NCBI GenBank assembly: GCA_015232555.1
Contig: JADFZJ010000033.1
Coordinates: 1-47,564, forward strand
DNA from: Desulfamplus sp.
Lineage (GTDB): Bacteria > Desulfobacterota > Desulfobacteria > Desulfobacterales > Desulfobacteraceae
DNA: 47,564 bases
Direction of reading: 5' to 3'
How positions within the stretch are numbered: the stretch's first letter is position 1; every line of letters begins with the position of its first letter. The notes under the pieces are model-generated. The model did not search any database. It had not been told where the DNA came from and worked only from the letters and a program-made list of their open reading frames with translations. The position numbers were made by a program, and so were the translations under genes. Below, in pieces: positions 28,942 to 35,306 of the stretch.

Positions 28942-30369
28942 TTATAATACTCTAAAATCCTCTTTTTTGATATCAAGCTGCTTCATTTTATTGTAAAACC
29001 CCCGAGGATGAATACCCGCAAGTTTTGCACCCTGCCCTACCCTGCCATTCACCTTTTTAAGTATCATTTGAATATATAACCGTTCAACATTGCTTAACAC
29101 CTCTGAAGTCACTTGAGGCAAAGTTTTATTATCCCATGATGCTGAGTTAAATATCTGATTTTCAATCGAAAGAGGATTGAGTTGAATTCCAGCAGGATTA
29201 AAAATACTTTCAGGAAGATCGTCTGGCTGCACTGTGTCTGTTCTGCAAAGAAGCATTGCCCGTTCAATTACATTCATAAGCTCTCTTACATTACCTGGCC
29301 ATTCATACTGGCTCATAAGTTGAACAGCCTCTTCTGATATTCCGATAACCTCCTTGCCGATTTTTTTGCGATAGTATGAGATAAAGTTGCGTATAAGTCC
29401 AGGAATGTCCTCTCTTCTGCGGCACAGCGGAGGAATTTTTAGAGATACAACGCTAATTCTGTAAAAGAGATCCTTGCGGAATCTGCCAAATTCAATCTCT
29501 TTTTCAAGGTCTTTATTGGTGGCAGCAATAACACGGACATCAACCCAGATTGGCTCTTCTCCGCCAATGGGTACAAACTCATAATCTTGAAGCACCCGCA
29601 AAAGTTTTGTCTGTAAATGAAGAGGCATATCCCCAATTTCGTCTAAAAAGATTGTCCCGTTGTGGGCAAGCTCAAACGCTCCGCGGCGTGCACGGATAGC
29701 ACCTGTAAAAGCTCCTTGTTCATGACCAAAAAGCTCTGTTTCAAGGAGCTGTTCAGGAAGAGCTGCTGTATTTACCGCAATAAAGGGACCGTTGGAGCGA
29801 GGTCCCTCTGCATGGATAGCCTTTGCAAGATGCTCTTTTCCTACACCTGTTTCACCTAAAATCAGAAGTGTTGAACTGCTGTTTACAACCTGCTGAACCT
29901 CTTCCATAAAAATCTGCATCTGTTGGCTGTCAGATACAAAATCGCTGATTTTAGGCTTTAGACGTCCTTTGCGATCATATCTGTCCATGAGATTAAACTG
30001 CCGCCGAGATTCCAAAATTGTCTCCATCGCCTCGGTCAGACTTGTGATAGAGATACCTGAATAGAGAACAGCATCAGCACCAGCAGCAAGCAGTTGGGCA
30101 TGATCTTCTGACGAGTCATTGGCATGAAGTACAATGGTCACGGGTTTCTCTGGAAGGTTATTTAATACAGATAGCCCCGATTCTATAGGCGTTGGAATCA
30201 TGGATTCGCTTATTAAAAATATATCTGCACAACTTCTCACAAGAGATTGCCACACTCCGTTATTCCTGCCAAATTTTTTGATTTGAACATCCGAAATCTC
30301 ATCTAACTTATCTACAATCTTTGATTCAAGTTTTTTATCTTTTATTGCTAATGCAAGTCTGAGCAGCAT
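28942..30369 (-). CDS. sigma-54-dependent activator with degenerate receiver
   Basis: A 475-residue NtrC-like enhancer-binding protein. Residues 1-125 have the shape of a receiver, but the acceptor Asp is replaced by Ser54 (FLISES) and the conserved Lys is absent (GADAVLYSG), so it is probably controlled by ligand or protein binding, not phosphorylation. The AAA+ domain has Walker A GETGVGKE (172-179), the sigma-54 contact loop GAFTGA (219-224) and FLDEIGD. The C-terminus (about 430-470) is a Fis-type helix-turn-helix. It is transcribed away from the SpeD-like operon across a 617 bp gap that carries a good -24/-12 promoter, so that operon is its likely target. Confidence 0.93.
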   Translation of the reverse strand: MLLRLALAIKDKKLESKIVDKLDEISDVQIKKFGRNNGVWQSLVRSCADIFLISESMIPTPIESGLSVLNNLPEKPVTIVLHANDSSEDHAQLLAAGADAVLYSGISITSLTEAMETILESRRQFNLMDRYDRKGRLKPKISDFVSDSQQMQIFMEEVQQVVNSSSTLLILGETGVGKEHLAKAIHAEGPRSNGPFIAVNTAALPEQLLETELFGHEQGAFTGAIRARRGAFELAHNGTIFLDEIGDMPLHLQTKLLRVLQDYEFVPIGGEEPIWVDVRVIAATNKDLEKEIEFGRFRKDLFYRISVVSLKIPPLCRRREDIPGLIRNFISYYRKKIGKEVIGISEEAVQLMSQYEWPGNVRELMNVIERAMLLCRTDTVQPDDLPESIFNPAGIQLNPLSIENQIFNSASWDNKTLPQVTSEVLSNVERLYIQMILKKVNGRVGQGAKLAGIHPRGFYNKMKQLDIKKEDFRVL

Positions 30370-30810: not shown

Positions 30811-30882
30811 GCATGGCACTAAATATGCTTAATGCCATGCTCATTAATAGAGTAATGAGTACAAATATTGTATAATATTTGT
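30811..30882. repeat. three inverted repeats around the start site and leader
   Basis: GCATGGCA (30811-30818) and TGCCATGC (30833-30840) bracket the sigma-54 element. CTCATTA/TAATGAG (30840-30846, 30853-30859) and ACAAATATT/AATATTTGT (30861-30869, 30874-30882) are perfect hairpins at the beginning of the predicted leader RNA. The first may be an operator; the others may be RNA elements. Confidence 0.65.
30814..30829 (+). promoter_or_regulatory. sigma-54 (-24/-12) promoter of the SpeD-like operon
   Basis: TGGCACTAAATATGCT has the invariant GG and GC with the required 10 bp between them and a full TGGCAC upstream half; only the first T of the TTGC half is A. The predicted start is near 30840, leaving a leader of about 147 nt. 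Confidence 0.75.
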
Positions 30883-30986
30883 ATCGTAACTTTATCTGAT
30901 TTTGGCTAAGTTGGTATTTATTTACAGATTTTTATAACATGAAATTTATTAAAAATAATAATAAAATAGTAAAAAGGAGATATAAA

Positions 30987-31376
30987 ATGGGAATTTCACC
31001 GATTAGAAAAATTGATCTTGCCGAAGATGTCTGGGGTATTGCATCCTCTATTGATATATATGAATGCAATCCTGAGAAGATCAGGGATCCTGAGTATATA
31101 AAACAATTTGTAAAGGATTTGTGTGATCTGATTGAGATGAAGAGGTTTGGAGAGACTCAGGTTGTCCATTTTGGAGAAGATGAGAAAGTTGCGGGTTTTT
31201 CAATGGTACAGTTGATTGAGACATCACTTATTTCAGCCCATTTTGCAAATCTTACCAATGCCACATATTTAGATGTGTTTAGTTGCAAACCCTATGATCC
31301 TGAAGTTGTGAAAAATTTTGCCCAGGGATATTTTGAAGGTAAAGAGACCATACTTAATGTAAGTTATAGGAAATAG
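30987..31376 (+). CDS. SpeD-like pyruvoyl decarboxylase homologue
   Basis: A 129-residue protein with the fold signature of bacterial S-adenosylmethionine decarboxylase. Ser80 (in IETSLISAHF), His85 and Cys100 (DVFSC) keep the exact spacing of the Ser63, His68 and Cys83 of characterised SpeD, so self-cleavage between Thr79 and Ser80 to form a pyruvoyl group is plausible. However, the usual Glu before the Ser is Thr, the following His is Leu, and the Pro-Glu after the His is Asn-Leu, so AdoMet is probably not the substrate. SpeD homologues acting on ornithine or arginine are known. AAAGGAG precedes ATG 30987; the upstream ATG at 30939 has none. It is the first gene of a four-gene operon. Confidence 0.8.
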   Translation: MGISPIRKIDLAEDVWGIASSIDIYECNPEKIRDPEYIKQFVKDLCDLIEMKRFGETQVVHFGEDEKVAGFSMVQLIETSLISAHFANLTNATYLDVFSCKPYDPEVVKNFAQGYFEGKETILNVSYRK

Positions 31377-31380
31377 AACA

Positions 31381-32418
31381 ATGCCGTCAAACATTCGCAT
31401 TGTAAGCGATATTAATGAATGTGCATATTTATGGCAAAAATACTACCCAGTTGAATGTCTCTTTGATCTTTGGCAGGTCAGAGAGACATTTGCTAAAATT
31501 TACAGCAGGGAGAACTTTTTTGTTGTCCATGAAACGCATGGCAGGGTAAACGGACTGCTTCCTCTATGCAGAATTACTGAAACTGCCAACATTACAACGG
31601 GTAATATAAATCAAGTCAACTATCTGTCTGAAACAGTTGATAAAGTTGAACCCCAATCCGAAATAGTTACTTATATGTTTTTTCCGGGTGAGATATGGAA
31701 CAACCGAACATGGATGGAGCAGAATAAGATTGTTGCTGAAAATAGTGATGTTATGCTTAAGATGCTATTGGCGGTTCAGGCTAATTCAGATTCAGAATAT
31801 AATAAGATTAATGCTGATATTAGATATCTGAGTATAGACTATTTAAAACAATTTCCATATCAATTTAATAATAACTTTACTTCTGACGAAACTGGTTATC
31901 TGTTTTATCCTGCAAATTATGATTACAGCTATGAAAAATATCTTGCTTCATTTGCAGGCAAATCGAGAAAAAAAATCTTGTCAGAAATAACGGCACTTGA
32001 ACAGCAGGGTCTCTCTTTTAGATACGATAATCTTGAAGATTTAGACGTAATGTTGCAATTTAATATAAATAATTTTGGAGCGTATGGATATTTTAATGAC
32101 TCAAGATTTTTAACTGCCTTTAAAATACTTGCTAATTTTTTGCATGAACAGAAAATGTTGAGAGTTGTTACGGTGCTCATAAATAACGAAATTGCAGCGG
32201 TTGATATGGGTGCTGTATGGAATAATAACTGTATCATGTTAGCAGGCGGAACTAACAAAAACTTTCTCGGGGTTGCCAAACTTATCAATCTTCACCATAT
32301 TGAATGGGCATGTTCTGATAGGATTGACTCTATTGATTTTCTGTGTGGAGATTTTGGGTGGAAAGAGCGGTTTCATCTAACTCCAAGACCTCTTTATCAG
32401 ATAATCTTAAATTACTAA
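31381..32418 (+). CDS. GNAT/FemAB-like acyltransferase
   Basis: A 345-residue protein whose C-terminal half (about 185-340) resembles the CelD/BioF2-like acetyltransferase domain: the basic helix FAGKSRKKI (191-199), the strand RVVTVLINNEIAAVDMG and the closing segment FLCGDFGWKERF (320-331). The N-terminal half probably is the matching second GNAT-like half typical of FemAB-type enzymes. Such enzymes transfer acyl or aminoacyl groups to an amine. It begins 4 bp after the SpeD-like gene. The donor and acceptor are unknown; in this setting the acceptor may be the amine formed by the decarboxylases. Confidence 0.8.
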   Translation: MPSNIRIVSDINECAYLWQKYYPVECLFDLWQVRETFAKIYSRENFFVVHETHGRVNGLLPLCRITETANITTGNINQVNYLSETVDKVEPQSEIVTYMFFPGEIWNNRTWMEQNKIVAENSDVMLKMLLAVQANSDSEYNKINADIRYLSIDYLKQFPYQFNNNFTSDETGYLFYPANYDYSYEKYLASFAGKSRKKILSEITALEQQGLSFRYDNLEDLDVMLQFNINNFGAYGYFNDSRFLTAFKILANFLHEQKMLRVVTVLINNEIAAVDMGAVWNNNCIMLAGGTNKNFLGVAKLINLHHIEWACSDRIDSIDFLCGDFGWKERFHLTPRPLYQIILNY

Positions 32419-32444
32419 TATTTTTATATGAAAGTCTTTTAAAA

Positions 32445-33875
32445 ATGAGTACCCAAAGAGTTCTGGTTGTAGGAACAACATCAGATTATATTGATATTAT
32501 TCGCCATAAATACCCTTCTAAAAGCCTTCTTTTTATCACTTCTCCAGCAATAAGAGATAAGGCAACTGAAGAGAAACCAGAGCCAGACGAGGAGCTTTTG
32601 TGTGAACTTGATGTAGCTTATGATCATCTTGAAACTGTAATCATCCTTATTCGTCAGCATCTTGAATCGTATAATATCTCTTTGAAAGGCATTGTCTGCT
32701 TTGACTGCGAATCAATGCCTCTTGCTGCCAATATTGCGGCTGCATTTTGTCTGCCCTATCCATCAATAGAGGCTGTTATGGCGTGTCGGGACAAATCAAT
32801 TACCAGAAAATTGTGGCACGCAAATCAAGTTCCATGCCCTCAATATGCAAGGGTAAGCTCAGCGGCTCAGGCTGTTGATTTTTTTGAAAATTTGTCTGAT
32901 GAAACTTCTATTTGTGTGTTAAAACCTGTTGACAGCAGCGGAAGTGAACGGGTTTTTAAGTGCAGTACAGCAAAAGAGTGTGAAACCGCATACAACATTA
33001 TCTGTAAACCACAAGAGTCGCCTGATATTATAATTGAAACCTATGTGGAGGGAACTGAATACAGTTGTGATTTTATAATTGATGACACAGCGTGCTTAAG
33101 ACATACAGATAATATAACGCAGAAAGTCTATGAGAGTCAGGTTATTCCCATCAGATTGACCAGAAAGATACCAGCCCCTATTCCTATATTTGGCACTATA
33201 ATGGCTTATGAAATTGTAGATTTTTTATCTGAAAATGAAAATTGTTCTCAAAATGTTTTTCCTGCCAGTTGTTTTTCCTCTTCTTCTGAAAATTTTTCGA
33301 TAAACGATCTTCTCCCTATTTTAGCAAAGGCTGCAAAATCACTTGGTATCACAAGGTCAATCTGTATGGTTGATTTTATTGTAAAAGATACTCTTCTTAA
33401 GGAAGGGGTTATTCAAAATGGTAACACCAAAAGTAACAACCCGCAAAATCATGGCGAAAGTTATGACAGCATAGCACTGCTTGAAATGGCTCCAAGACCT
33501 GGAGGAGATTGCCTTCCATGGCTTATCCAGCGTTCCATGAATATCGATATTTTGAAACTAACCCTTGATTTTGCCTGCAAGCAGAAGTCTATTTTTAATA
33601 ATGATATTCATAAACAACCTTGTAATCTTGTTGGTCTAAGAATCCATGCCAACAAAGCTGGGATTTTAAAATCTATTGATATAAGTATGGTTAAGTCAGA
33701 TTCCCGAGTTAGAGAGATTTTTATAAAACGTAAACCAGGGGATCAAATTATTCTGCCTCCTCAAAATTACGATTCATGGAATATGGGGCATATTATTTTT
33801 GAACCTTATGAAGATACTCCTTGTAAAGATCAGTGCATGGAACTTTTATCAATATTGAAAATAAAAATAGTATAA
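32445..33875 (+). CDS. ATP-grasp carboxylate-amine ligase
   Basis: A 476-residue ATP-grasp enzyme. The N-terminal domain (1-110) starts with a Rossmann-like strand RVLVVG, and the ATP-grasp part shows CRDKSITRKLW (114-124), VLKPVDSSGSERV (158-170, Lys160 for ATP), ETYVEGTEYSCD (198-209) and the Mg-binding LEMAPRPGGD (346-355). It should form an amide (or peptide) bond through an acyl phosphate. Ser/Asn-rich insertions occur near 265-285 and 325-340. I start at ATG 32445, 26 bp after the previous stop, because the fold begins there; the frame is open from 32343 inside the acyltransferase gene. Confidence 0.88.
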   Translation: MSTQRVLVVGTTSDYIDIIRHKYPSKSLLFITSPAIRDKATEEKPEPDEELLCELDVAYDHLETVIILIRQHLESYNISLKGIVCFDCESMPLAANIAAAFCLPYPSIEAVMACRDKSITRKLWHANQVPCPQYARVSSAAQAVDFFENLSDETSICVLKPVDSSGSERVFKCSTAKECETAYNIICKPQESPDIIIETYVEGTEYSCDFIIDDTACLRHTDNITQKVYESQVIPIRLTRKIPAPIPIFGTIMAYEIVDFLSENENCSQNVFPASCFSSSSENFSINDLLPILAKAAKSLGITRSICMVDFIVKDTLLKEGVIQNGNTKSNNPQNHGESYDSIALLEMAPRPGGDCLPWLIQRSMNIDILKLTLDFACKQKSIFNNDIHKQPCNLVGLRIHANKAGILKSIDISMVKSDSRVREIFIKRKPGDQIILPPQNYDSWNMGHIIFEPYEDTPCKDQCMELLSILKIKIV

Positions 33876-33900
33876 GGAAGAACAGAAGGCGAGGTTTAAA

Positions 33901-35253
33901 ATGGTTGATTCATCAGAAGATAAACAAAAAATATTGCAGCAGATTCAGGCTATTTTGAATCAGAATACACCTCTGCTGCCAGATAGCACTCTGCATGATT
34001 TTGTTGAAGCCAATTTTAGAAAAGGGAGGCAGATTCTCCATACCATCGGCGGTCATCTGACTCCCTGTTACCTGTTTGAACCAGGTATCGTTATAGCCAG
34101 AGCCAAAACATTCAAGAGAGCTTTTCAGCAGAACCTGCCTGATACGGGATTCTATTTTGCCATGAAAAGCAACAACTTTCTTGATGTTTCAAAAACAATT
34201 CTTGGATGTGGTTTTGGTTTAGATGTCTCAAGCGGTGCTGAACTTGAAACTGCATTGGAGCTTGGTGCTGATGATATCGTATTCAGCGGTCCAGGAAAAA
34301 CAGCACAAGAGCTTGATATTGCAGTTGTTAACCACAAAAAGGTTGTGGTGTTGATGGATAGTCTCTCCGAGATGAAACGGCTTGAGAAACGGGCTGCACG
34401 TATAGGGAAAAATATCAGAGCGGGAGTTAGGCTCACAACAGAACCTCATGGACTGTGGCGAAAATTTGGAATACTCAAAGAGGATTTACAGTCATTTATC
34501 AATGAGTCAAAGAGATATGGACATATCAGGCTTCAGGGGATTCAGTTCCATTCAAGCTGGAATATGGGACCTGAGCGGCAGATAGCATTTATAAAAGAGT
34601 TAGGACAGACTCTTGCGAGTTTAACACCTGAAGAGCGTGAGATTATAAAATTCATTGATATAGGCGGCGGTTACTGGCCTGAACAGGGAGAGTGGCTTCA
34701 ACCTGGAGGAACGCCTCAAGGCGTGCTGCGAAATGCTGTTTTTTCAGCCTCTTCCGCATTATCTTTGGATGGTTTATCATCATCTTCTTCTGCTGCATAT
34801 CCTCACTATCTCAACGCTTCAACATCAATTGAGACTTTTGCCCGTGAGTTAAGCAGTGCCATCTGTGAACATATTCAGAGCCTTATCTCATGTAAAATCT
34901 GTTTTGAGCCTGGCAGATTGATATGCAATGACAGTATGCACATTATCCTTAAAGTTATGGACAAAAAATATGACGATCTGGTTATTACTGATGGCGGAAC
35001 TAATGCTGTAGGGTGGGAGCGTTTTGAAACAGATTACTGCCCAATTTTAAATATCTCGCGTCCAGCAATGACAGAAAGAGAGTGTCTTATTACTGGTTCT
35101 CTTTGCACCCCTCACGATCTTTGGGGATACAGTTACTGGGGAAAAGAGATACATGAGGGCGATCTACTGATGATTCCTGAGCAGGGAGCTTACACATACA
35201 GTCTGCGTCAAAATTTTATTAAGGCTCTACCGCAAGTTATCTCATTTCCATAA
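33901..35253 (+). CDS. fold-type III PLP decarboxylase (LysA/ODC superfamily)
   Basis: A 450-residue alanine-racemase-fold decarboxylase. PLP-binding Lys89 is in FAMKSNN, followed by DVSSGAEL, His217 in FHSSWNMGPERQ, the phosphate loop GGGYWP (255-260) and EPGRLI (336-341). The second-chain residues Cys402 and Asp406 (LCTPHDLWG) and Tyr431 (GAYTYS) are present, so it should be active. The specificity stretch is not that of diaminopimelate decarboxylase (FHSSWN in place of HIGSQ). BtrK-like enzymes acting on ligated amino acids are a relevant parallel. It closes the operon, 25 bp after the ATP-grasp gene. Confidence 0.88.
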   Translation: MVDSSEDKQKILQQIQAILNQNTPLLPDSTLHDFVEANFRKGRQILHTIGGHLTPCYLFEPGIVIARAKTFKRAFQQNLPDTGFYFAMKSNNFLDVSKTILGCGFGLDVSSGAELETALELGADDIVFSGPGKTAQELDIAVVNHKKVVVLMDSLSEMKRLEKRAARIGKNIRAGVRLTTEPHGLWRKFGILKEDLQSFINESKRYGHIRLQGIQFHSSWNMGPERQIAFIKELGQTLASLTPEEREIIKFIDIGGGYWPEQGEWLQPGGTPQGVLRNAVFSASSALSLDGLSSSSSAAYPHYLNASTSIETFARELSSAICEHIQSLISCKICFEPGRLICNDSMHIILKVMDKKYDDLVITDGGTNAVGWERFETDYCPILNISRPAMTERECLITGSLCTPHDLWGYSYWGKEIHEGDLLMIPEQGAYTYSLRQNFIKALPQVISFP

Positions 35254-35254
35254 C

Positions 35255-35306
35255 ATAACGCTAAATCCTCTATTAATAGTATAGAAGATTTAGCGTTATA
35301 ATTTTT
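35255..35306 (+). terminator. intrinsic terminator of the SpeD-like operon
   Basis: ATAACGCTAAATC (35255-35267) pairs perfectly with GATTTAGCGTTAT (35287-35299), with extra CTAT/ATAG pairing inside, and is followed by AATTTTT. It lies right after the decarboxylase stop. Confidence 0.88.

Follow-up and report, generated by a model that had tools for sequence, protein, structure and literature searches.

A conserved four-gene operon of Desulfamplus and its relatives as a candidate pathway for a putrescine-derived amide

A stretch of 47,564 nucleotides from the sulfate-reducing bacterium Desulfamplus sp. (contig JADFZJ010000033.1 of assembly GCA_015232555.1; hereafter the window) carries four adjacent genes that might together make a small molecule. 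The reading we favor, which we regard as roughly an even bet, is that the genes constitute one pathway, controlled by sigma-54, whose product is an amide derived from putrescine. Given that the operon has its own sigma-54 control and that its gene order is kept across records with six phylum labels, it is very likely that the four genes have been selected as a unit. The genes, all on the same strand, are as follows, where PLP is pyridoxal phosphate and AdoMet is S-adenosylmethionine.

30987..31376, + strand: gene 1, predicted SpeDC-type pyruvoyl-dependent ornithine decarboxylase (129 aa; AdoMet_dc match and diagnostic residues)
31381..32418, + strand: gene 2, predicted tandem-GNAT, FemX-like transferase (345 aa; Acetyltransf_6 match and Foldseek)
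32445..33875, + strand: gene 3, predicted ATP-grasp amide ligase of the L-amino-acid-ligase type (476 aa; PDB profile and Foldseek)
33901..35253, + strand: gene 4, predicted fold-type III PLP decarboxylase with an LCTPxD motif (450 aa; invariant residues and profile)

A preliminary description of the window had reported four tightly spaced genes on one strand, and they are present as claimed, with gaps of 4, 26 and 25 base pairs. The Pfam matches are AdoMet_dc for gene 1 (4.4e-22), Acetyltransf_6 for gene 2 (1.6e-15), ATP-grasp_3 for gene 3 (5.4e-8), and Orn_Arg_deC_N for gene 4 (2.3e-22), the last being a family of ornithine, diaminopimelate and arginine decarboxylases. The nearest named relatives belong to Desulfamplus. 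Cultivated relatives with the operon include Desulfobacter latus and Desulfospira joergensenii.

Co-location of the four families in other genomes, which the preliminary description had set beforehand as a test of its proposal, is indeed found. Scanning 84,980 species genomes yielded 143 relatives, many of whose records are metagenome-assembled genomes, and 80 loci were kept for analysis. Sixty-two of these have at least 3.5 kb of contig upstream of gene 4 and were used to assess gene order, and the other 18 were too short and were set aside. Of these 62, 48 show the order 1-2-3-4 on one strand, including one operon that is decaying; the others show 2-3-4 (seven loci), 1-2-4 (three), gene 4 alone (three) and 3-4 (one). 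Relatives of gene 4 were detected in 44 of 98 relatives at a threshold of 1e-20; at 1e-40, 15 of 395 genomes sampled from the phylum had one.

The full order is found in records labeled Nitrospirae (L119), Krumholzibacteriia (L146), Planctomycetota (L127, L138, L152, L162 and L171, with Phycisphaerae, Sedimentisphaerales and Pirellulales included), Armatimonadota (L133 and L176), and Omnitrophota (L157 and L179). The remaining full-order records are labeled Desulfobacterota, Deltaproteobacteria or Proteobacteria, and thus five further phylum labels are represented besides Desulfobacterota. In the gene 1 tree, two of the Planctomycetota-labeled loci (L162 and L171) cluster with Desulfobacterota loci, which could reflect transfer or wrong binning. 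Partial gene sets are present in Lentisphaerae and Zixiibacteriota records, including one Lentisphaerae genome in which genes 2 and 3 share a contig with gene 4 but lie about 50 kb away from it, next to an open reading frame (ORF) that by eye resembles the sigma-54 regulator described below.

Two further observations bear on whether the genes work together. One of the 48 loci, L150 from Desulfoluna limicola, has Ala in place of the pyruvoyl Ser of gene 1, and its gene 3 is cut to 146 aa by a large deletion; all four genes are intact in D. butyratoxydans (L149). This joint decay of genes 1 and 3 counts for one pathway, and remnants of gene 1 are also seen in other relatives. In addition, genes 3 and 4 are fused into a single ORF of 865 or 938 aa at two of the 1-2-4 loci, L109 and L110, which come from one genome.

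Gene 1 had been described as SpeD-like. Its membership in the pyruvoyl AdoMet_dc family stands, but its residues are those of a SpeDC ornithine decarboxylase and not of an AdoMet decarboxylase. According to PMC10407285, a set of Gln, Thr, Phe and Tyr residues is diagnostic of SpeDC ornithine decarboxylases, and gene 1 carries Gln75, Thr79, Phe86 and Tyr94 together with Ser80, His85 and Cys100. All 69 operon copies conserve the four SpeDC residues along with the catalytic His and Cys, and 68 of them keep the pyruvoyl Ser. The diagnostic columns were placed by us and not taken from the sequence logo of PMC10407285; they were checked against the N-terminal domains of SpeD-SpeDC fusion proteins, which differ at all four positions (Val/Ile, Glu, Ala and Ala in 14 of 14). 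For one such fusion, from Desulfotignum phosphitoxidans, the C-terminal domain is proven to be the ornithine decarboxylase (PMC10407285). These residues strongly suggest that gene 1 codes for a SpeDC-type ornithine decarboxylase, and thus that its likely product is putrescine.

A role for gene 1 as an AdoMet decarboxylase was considered and rejected, given its SpeDC residues, the absence of a spermidine synthase partner, and a score of 29.5 bits against the Bsu-type model TIGR03330, whose cut-off is 75.65. The genome to which the window belongs (96.34% complete) has a single AdoMet_dc gene and no match to Spermine_synth (PF01564), and a search that did not extend to PF01862 found no OKR_DC and no SpeA over the cut-off. 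Searches of PDB sequences with gene 1 and with gene 2 returned no meaningful relative.

Several relatives hold both an operon copy of SpeDC and a separate SpeD-SpeDC fusion gene elsewhere in the genome, which suggests a separate use for the putrescine made by the operon. The fusions are 51-64% identical to gene 1 if intact and 33-41% if degraded. In the gene 1 tree, which was built from 129 columns and whose bootstrap had not settled, the SpeDC domains of fusions (L198-L211, L131 and L153) make up a single clade within the operon copies, which would fit an origin of the fusion SpeDC domain from an operon-like gene.

The notion that the ATP-grasp protein forms amide bonds is in keeping with its nearest matches, as gene 3 is closest to L-amino-acid ligases. 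In profile searches of the PDB, it matches 4dim (7.9e-28) and the L-amino-acid ligase 3vot (5.1e-24), and with an AlphaFold2 model (pLDDT 85.7) the best Foldseek matches are 3vot (2.5e-25), 4dim, RizA and BacD, at identities of about 13-18%. The ATP-grasp residues Lys160, Ser165-Glu168, Glu205, Asp310, Glu347 and Arg351 are invariant in 28 sequences. The C-terminal LAL_C2 domain scores below its cut-off (16.1 versus 29.4 bits).

For gene 4, the PLP-site residues are invariant in 20 sequences, where the conserved positions are Lys89, His217, Gly255-257, Glu336, Arg339, Cys402-Thr-Pro404, Asp406 and Tyr431. Its profile matches the N-citrylornithine decarboxylase 7kh2 (FslC; 7.7e-38), 6knh (2.1e-36), which we take to be SbnH, and BtrK (7ru7; 2.1e-35). 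The substrates of BtrK and SbnH are amino acids already attached through their side chains. The earlier comparison with BtrK is strengthened by a C-terminal LCTPxD motif that is common to gene 4, 6knh and BtrK; the LysA of the same genome has LCENID at this place. Gene 4 scores 70.2 bits against the FslC-type model NF041039 (cut-off 500) and 125.7 bits against the LysA model TIGR01048 (cut-off 297.9). Its assignment as the LysA or the NspC of the genome was rejected, as both a LysA-like gene and an NspC gene are located elsewhere.

Gene 2 had been described as similar to GNAT or FemAB proteins. The tandem GNAT fold is supported by an AlphaFold2 model (pLDDT 88.1) and Foldseek (TM about 0.5), but the FemAB_like match reaches only 0.015, under the cut-off, and the closest protein by structure prediction is FemX (5.1e-11; root-mean-square deviation about 6 Å, 11-14% identity). 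Farther down the list are MprF and two peptide synthases that depend on aminoacyl-tRNA, Sbb17 and Sba18. Since the model is more like FemX than like a typical acetyltransferase, an aminoacyl-tRNA appears to be at least as likely a donor as an acyl-CoA.

The preliminary description also assigned one promoter and one terminator to the operon. A sigma-54-like site and a terminator-like hairpin are present, but there is no excess of sigma-70-like sites over shuffled sequences (25 matches versus a shuffle mean of 19.8, sd 4.3). The control elements are the following.

28942..30369, - strand: divergent sigma-54-dependent activator, likely the operon regulator (475 aa; Sigma54_activat 7.2e-68, Fis-type HTH_8 1.3e-6)
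30814..30829, + strand: sigma-54 (-24/-12) promoter-like site, TGGCACTAAATATGCT (10 of 12 consensus positions)
35255..35299, + strand: terminator-like hairpin (inverted repeat with 19-nucleotide arms, 95% complementary)

The promoter-like site, scored against a consensus taken from general knowledge, was equaled in 0 of 200 Markov shuffles. Of 44 relatives with a divergent regulator upstream, 33 have a best sigma-54-like site that no more than 5 of 100 shuffles equaled, and the other 11 did not reach this level. The activator family is present in 33 of 41 neighborhoods of a first set of relatives and in 47 of 93 of a second set, which includes duplicates and short contigs. The hairpin has a predicted folding energy of -20.9 kcal/mol (z -5.4), and a consensus terminator scan did not report it. 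At seven loci without the sigma-54 regulator (L094, L127, L138, L140, L142, L146 and L160), a TetR-like gene is seen by eye upstream on the same strand instead.

Between the sigma-54 site and gene 1, the leader includes a perfect 10-base-pair inverted repeat, TACAAATATT/AATATTTGTA, at positions 30860-30883 of the window. In other loci, this region holds a small, highly charged ORF of about 53-80 aa with the core KFKxxYDEDxxWED...KRR, for which we collected 41 rows representing 31 distinct loci by eye (L054/L168 and 30 others). A sigma-54-like site with a score of at least 9 is located 50-84 nucleotides upstream of it in 27 of the 41 rows. In the 53-aa group (11 rows, whose pairs are not independent), single-base codon differences number 580 silent and 399 replacing, a ratio of 0.69 versus 5.3 expected. 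The small ORF is likely the first gene of the operon in those loci. It has no Pfam or NCBIfam match, and it was not seen upstream of gene 1 in the window.

Under the reading we favor, gene 1 would convert L-ornithine to putrescine by means of its pyruvoyl group, a step that is strongly indicated and the only one with a characterized close homolog. The other steps are proposed from the enzyme families. Gene 3 would activate a carboxylate as an acyl phosphate and couple it to an amine, and in the most economical form the side-chain carboxyl of glutamate or aspartate would be joined to putrescine. Gene 4 would strip the free alpha-carboxyl from this conjugate to give, for example, 4-aminobutyryl- or beta-alanyl-putrescine. 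Finally, the FemX-like product of gene 2 would cap an amine, drawing either on tRNA for an aminoacyl group or on a thioester for an acyl group. The ligase is placed before the decarboxylase because of the relatives of gene 4 and the fusion of genes 3 and 4; BtrK, for its part, decarboxylates glutamate bound to an acyl carrier protein. We consider this exact four-step variant about half as likely as the general proposal of a putrescine amide.

The product probably stays intracellular. Among 93 neighborhoods, in which genes below 70 aa were not counted, no exporter, receptor, carrier protein or NIS synthetase family recurs beside the operon, and the lack of a recurring exporter or carrier protein fits an intracellular product. 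The earlier idea of an acylated amine or amide is partly supported by the co-location, the gene 3-4 fusion, the ligase type and the BtrK motif, with the correction that gene 1 is likely a putrescine maker. More speculatively, and with a probability clearly short of even, the operon may represent an undescribed class of bacterial metabolites that is both ancient and widespread. The product would then be an aminoacyl-polyamine amide, for example a capped 4-aminobutyryl- or beta-alanyl-putrescine, which these four enzymes would make under sigma-54 control and which would serve inside anaerobes as a new kind of polyamine or a protective solute. If such an amide is made, it would constitute a new branch of polyamine metabolism and would give the operon SpeDC a role in genomes that also have a SpeD-SpeDC fusion. 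The four enzymes are small and soluble, and the proposal is directly testable in E. coli.

Several observations weigh against this proposal. Gene 1 is missing from 11 of the 62 usable loci, and in seven of those genomes there is no SpeDC match at 1e-5, which suggests that putrescine made by SpeDC is not always needed. The other four hold one distant match (29%), two fusions, and one detached copy at 72%. Pairwise identities of gene 1 track those of genes 2-4 weakly (rho 0.35-0.38), compared with 0.56-0.67 among genes 2-4. Thus, genes 2-3-4 appear to be the core of the system, with gene 1 putrescine as its usual but not its sole input. Gene 3 is not always present either: L118 keeps 1-2-4, and a search of its genome at 1e-20 found no gene 3. 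Likewise, gene 4 is present but gene 3 is absent in the genome of L147. FslC, the top PDB match of gene 4, lacks LCTPxD and has SCMQHD, and tandem GNATs that use CoA (e.g. VipF) are also in the Foldseek list for gene 2.

Moreover, the putrescine could be used by other enzymes. Another contig of the window's genome (L229:4397-8118) carries three consecutive genes of the carboxynorspermidine-synthase-like, NspC and agmatinase-like types, the first two of which could use the putrescine. The NspC gene scores 461.8 bits, the carboxynorspermidine-synthase-like gene 426.9 (below a cut-off of 800), and the agmatinase-like gene 171.4 versus 174.3. An agmatinase-like neighbor would fit an arginine decarboxylase, of which none was found in the searches described above, PF01862 being outside them.

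A C39-like peptidase gene is located just downstream of gene 4 at L122, L123, L129, L140, L154 and L156. It is present in 6 of the 11 loci without gene 1 and in 0 of the 51 with gene 1 (Fisher p 7.5e-6, uncorrected for relatedness), and it may replace a pathway step.

The persistence of genes 2-3-4 without gene 1, and their better correlation with each other than with it, would also be expected of a pseudo-dipeptide pathway in which putrescine is one block or is unused. Genes 2 and 3 would build a peptide-like amide and gene 4 would supply or trim a second amine, comparable to the acid-amino acid-amine plan of E-64. We regard this as unlikely, albeit a possibility to be taken seriously. Gene 3 resembles dipeptide ligases and gene 2 resembles aminoacyl-tRNA-dependent peptide synthases, and the E-64 pathway combines an ATP-grasp ligase with putrescine according to the available text of PMC12568646. 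However, gene 1 evolves more slowly than the other three (median pairwise identities for genes 1-4 are 0.71, 0.46, 0.41 and 0.53 among 47 loci) and is first in 48 of 62 loci. Furthermore, an ordinary alpha-peptide has no free alpha-amine beside its C-terminal carboxyl, and a PLP decarboxylase requires one there. A somewhat more doubtful explanation is that there is no single product, such that gene 1 feeds putrescine to spermidine and is co-transcribed with an independent 2-3-4 pathway for convenience or common regulation. Consistent with this, gene 1 is the sole ornithine or arginine decarboxylase found in the window's genome (PvlArgDC was not searched), which also has NspC and the carboxynorspermidine-synthase-like gene, and genes 2-3-4 occur without gene 1. 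The retention of gene 1 in several relatives that already hold a SpeD-SpeDC fusion elsewhere, along with gene order conserved across six phylum labels, argues otherwise.

Highly improbable, in our estimation, is a citryl-amine similar to a carboxylate siderophore, in which gene 3 joins citrate to an amino acid that gene 4 decarboxylates, as for rhizoferrin or staphyloferrin B. The best PDB profile match of gene 4 is an N-citrylornithine decarboxylase, followed by 6knh, and a citrate synthase gene neighbors gene 4 at 7 of 93 loci, from six genomes. Yet BtrK and LysA-type enzymes score nearly as high for gene 4, the families expected of a siderophore locus (NIS synthetase, exporter, receptor) do not recur beside the operon, and genes 1 and 2 would be left without a role.

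The citrate synthase gene is close downstream of gene 4 at L087, L088, L098, L120, L128, L158 and L171, where L088 and L158 are from one genome. Besides the regulator, no neighboring family occurs in more than 8 of the 93 loci when genes of at least 70 aa are counted. Downstream of the operon at L087, L088 and L158 there are two D-Ala-D-Ala-ligase-like ORFs and a lysine-aminomutase-like ORF (by eye), as well as GNAT-histone deacetylase and GNAT-arginase fusions. A plasmid or viral origin was considered and rejected. The 93 plasmid records that match gene 4 at 1e-5 are all below 60% identity, and 0 of 3 viral-contig candidates encode a relative.

We found no description of the four-gene set in the literature reached, where subscription papers are thinly covered and a prior prediction in a 2009 amidoligase-operon survey is possible. 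This agrees with the preliminary description, which knew of no pathway with this exact set. Nor did that literature yield a known pathway that the set matches completely, an outcome that the preliminary description had named as its second refuting condition. Iyer and colleagues reportedly surveyed ATP-grasp and GNAT amidoligase operons in 2009. The word "decarboxylase" is absent from the available text of a 2010 companion amidoligase paper (PMC2922099). Each of the enzymes is from a known superfamily, and it is the combination of the four that is undescribed in the literature reached.

The operon nevertheless shares parts with several characterized systems. One of these is the gene set for the butirosin side chain. 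In that system, BtrJ is an ATP-grasp protein and BtrK is a decarboxylase. The operon likewise pairs an ATP-grasp ligase, likened to BtrJ by role only, with a BtrK-like decarboxylase that has LCTPxD, but it adds a FemX-like protein and a pyruvoyl decarboxylase. A full butirosin-type pathway was judged unlikely, since the genes beside the operon include no recurrent carrier protein family (acyl carrier proteins below 70 aa could be missed, and distant genes were not searched). The best two PDB profile matches of gene 4 are FslC, which decarboxylates a conjugated amino acid according to its PDB name, and 6knh; SbnH also decarboxylates a conjugated amino acid. FslC differs in lacking the LCTP motif, and the operon has no siderophore synthetase. 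For gene 3, the best fold and profile matches are the L-amino-acid ligases BL00235, RizA and BacD, with the low identity given above, and for gene 2 the best fold matches are aminoacyl-tRNA-dependent transferases of the FemX/Sbb17 type, at the identity, TM and deviation already stated.

The fungal E-64 pathway, as given in the available text of PMC12568646, resembles the operon in using an ATP-grasp ligase and a putrescine-type amine to make an amide. It differs in its enzyme families, relying on an ANL-family amide synthetase to handle the amine and on an oxygenase to make an epoxide. The closest precedent for gene 1 is provided by the SpeDC decarboxylases of PMC10407285, with which it shares the four residues and the Ser, His and Cys, and relatives of the operon carry fusions of the same family. 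The gene clusters in the available text of that study pair SpeDC with SpeD/SpeE, CASDH/CASDC or HSS, whereas here the partners are a ligase, a FemX-like protein and a second decarboxylase.

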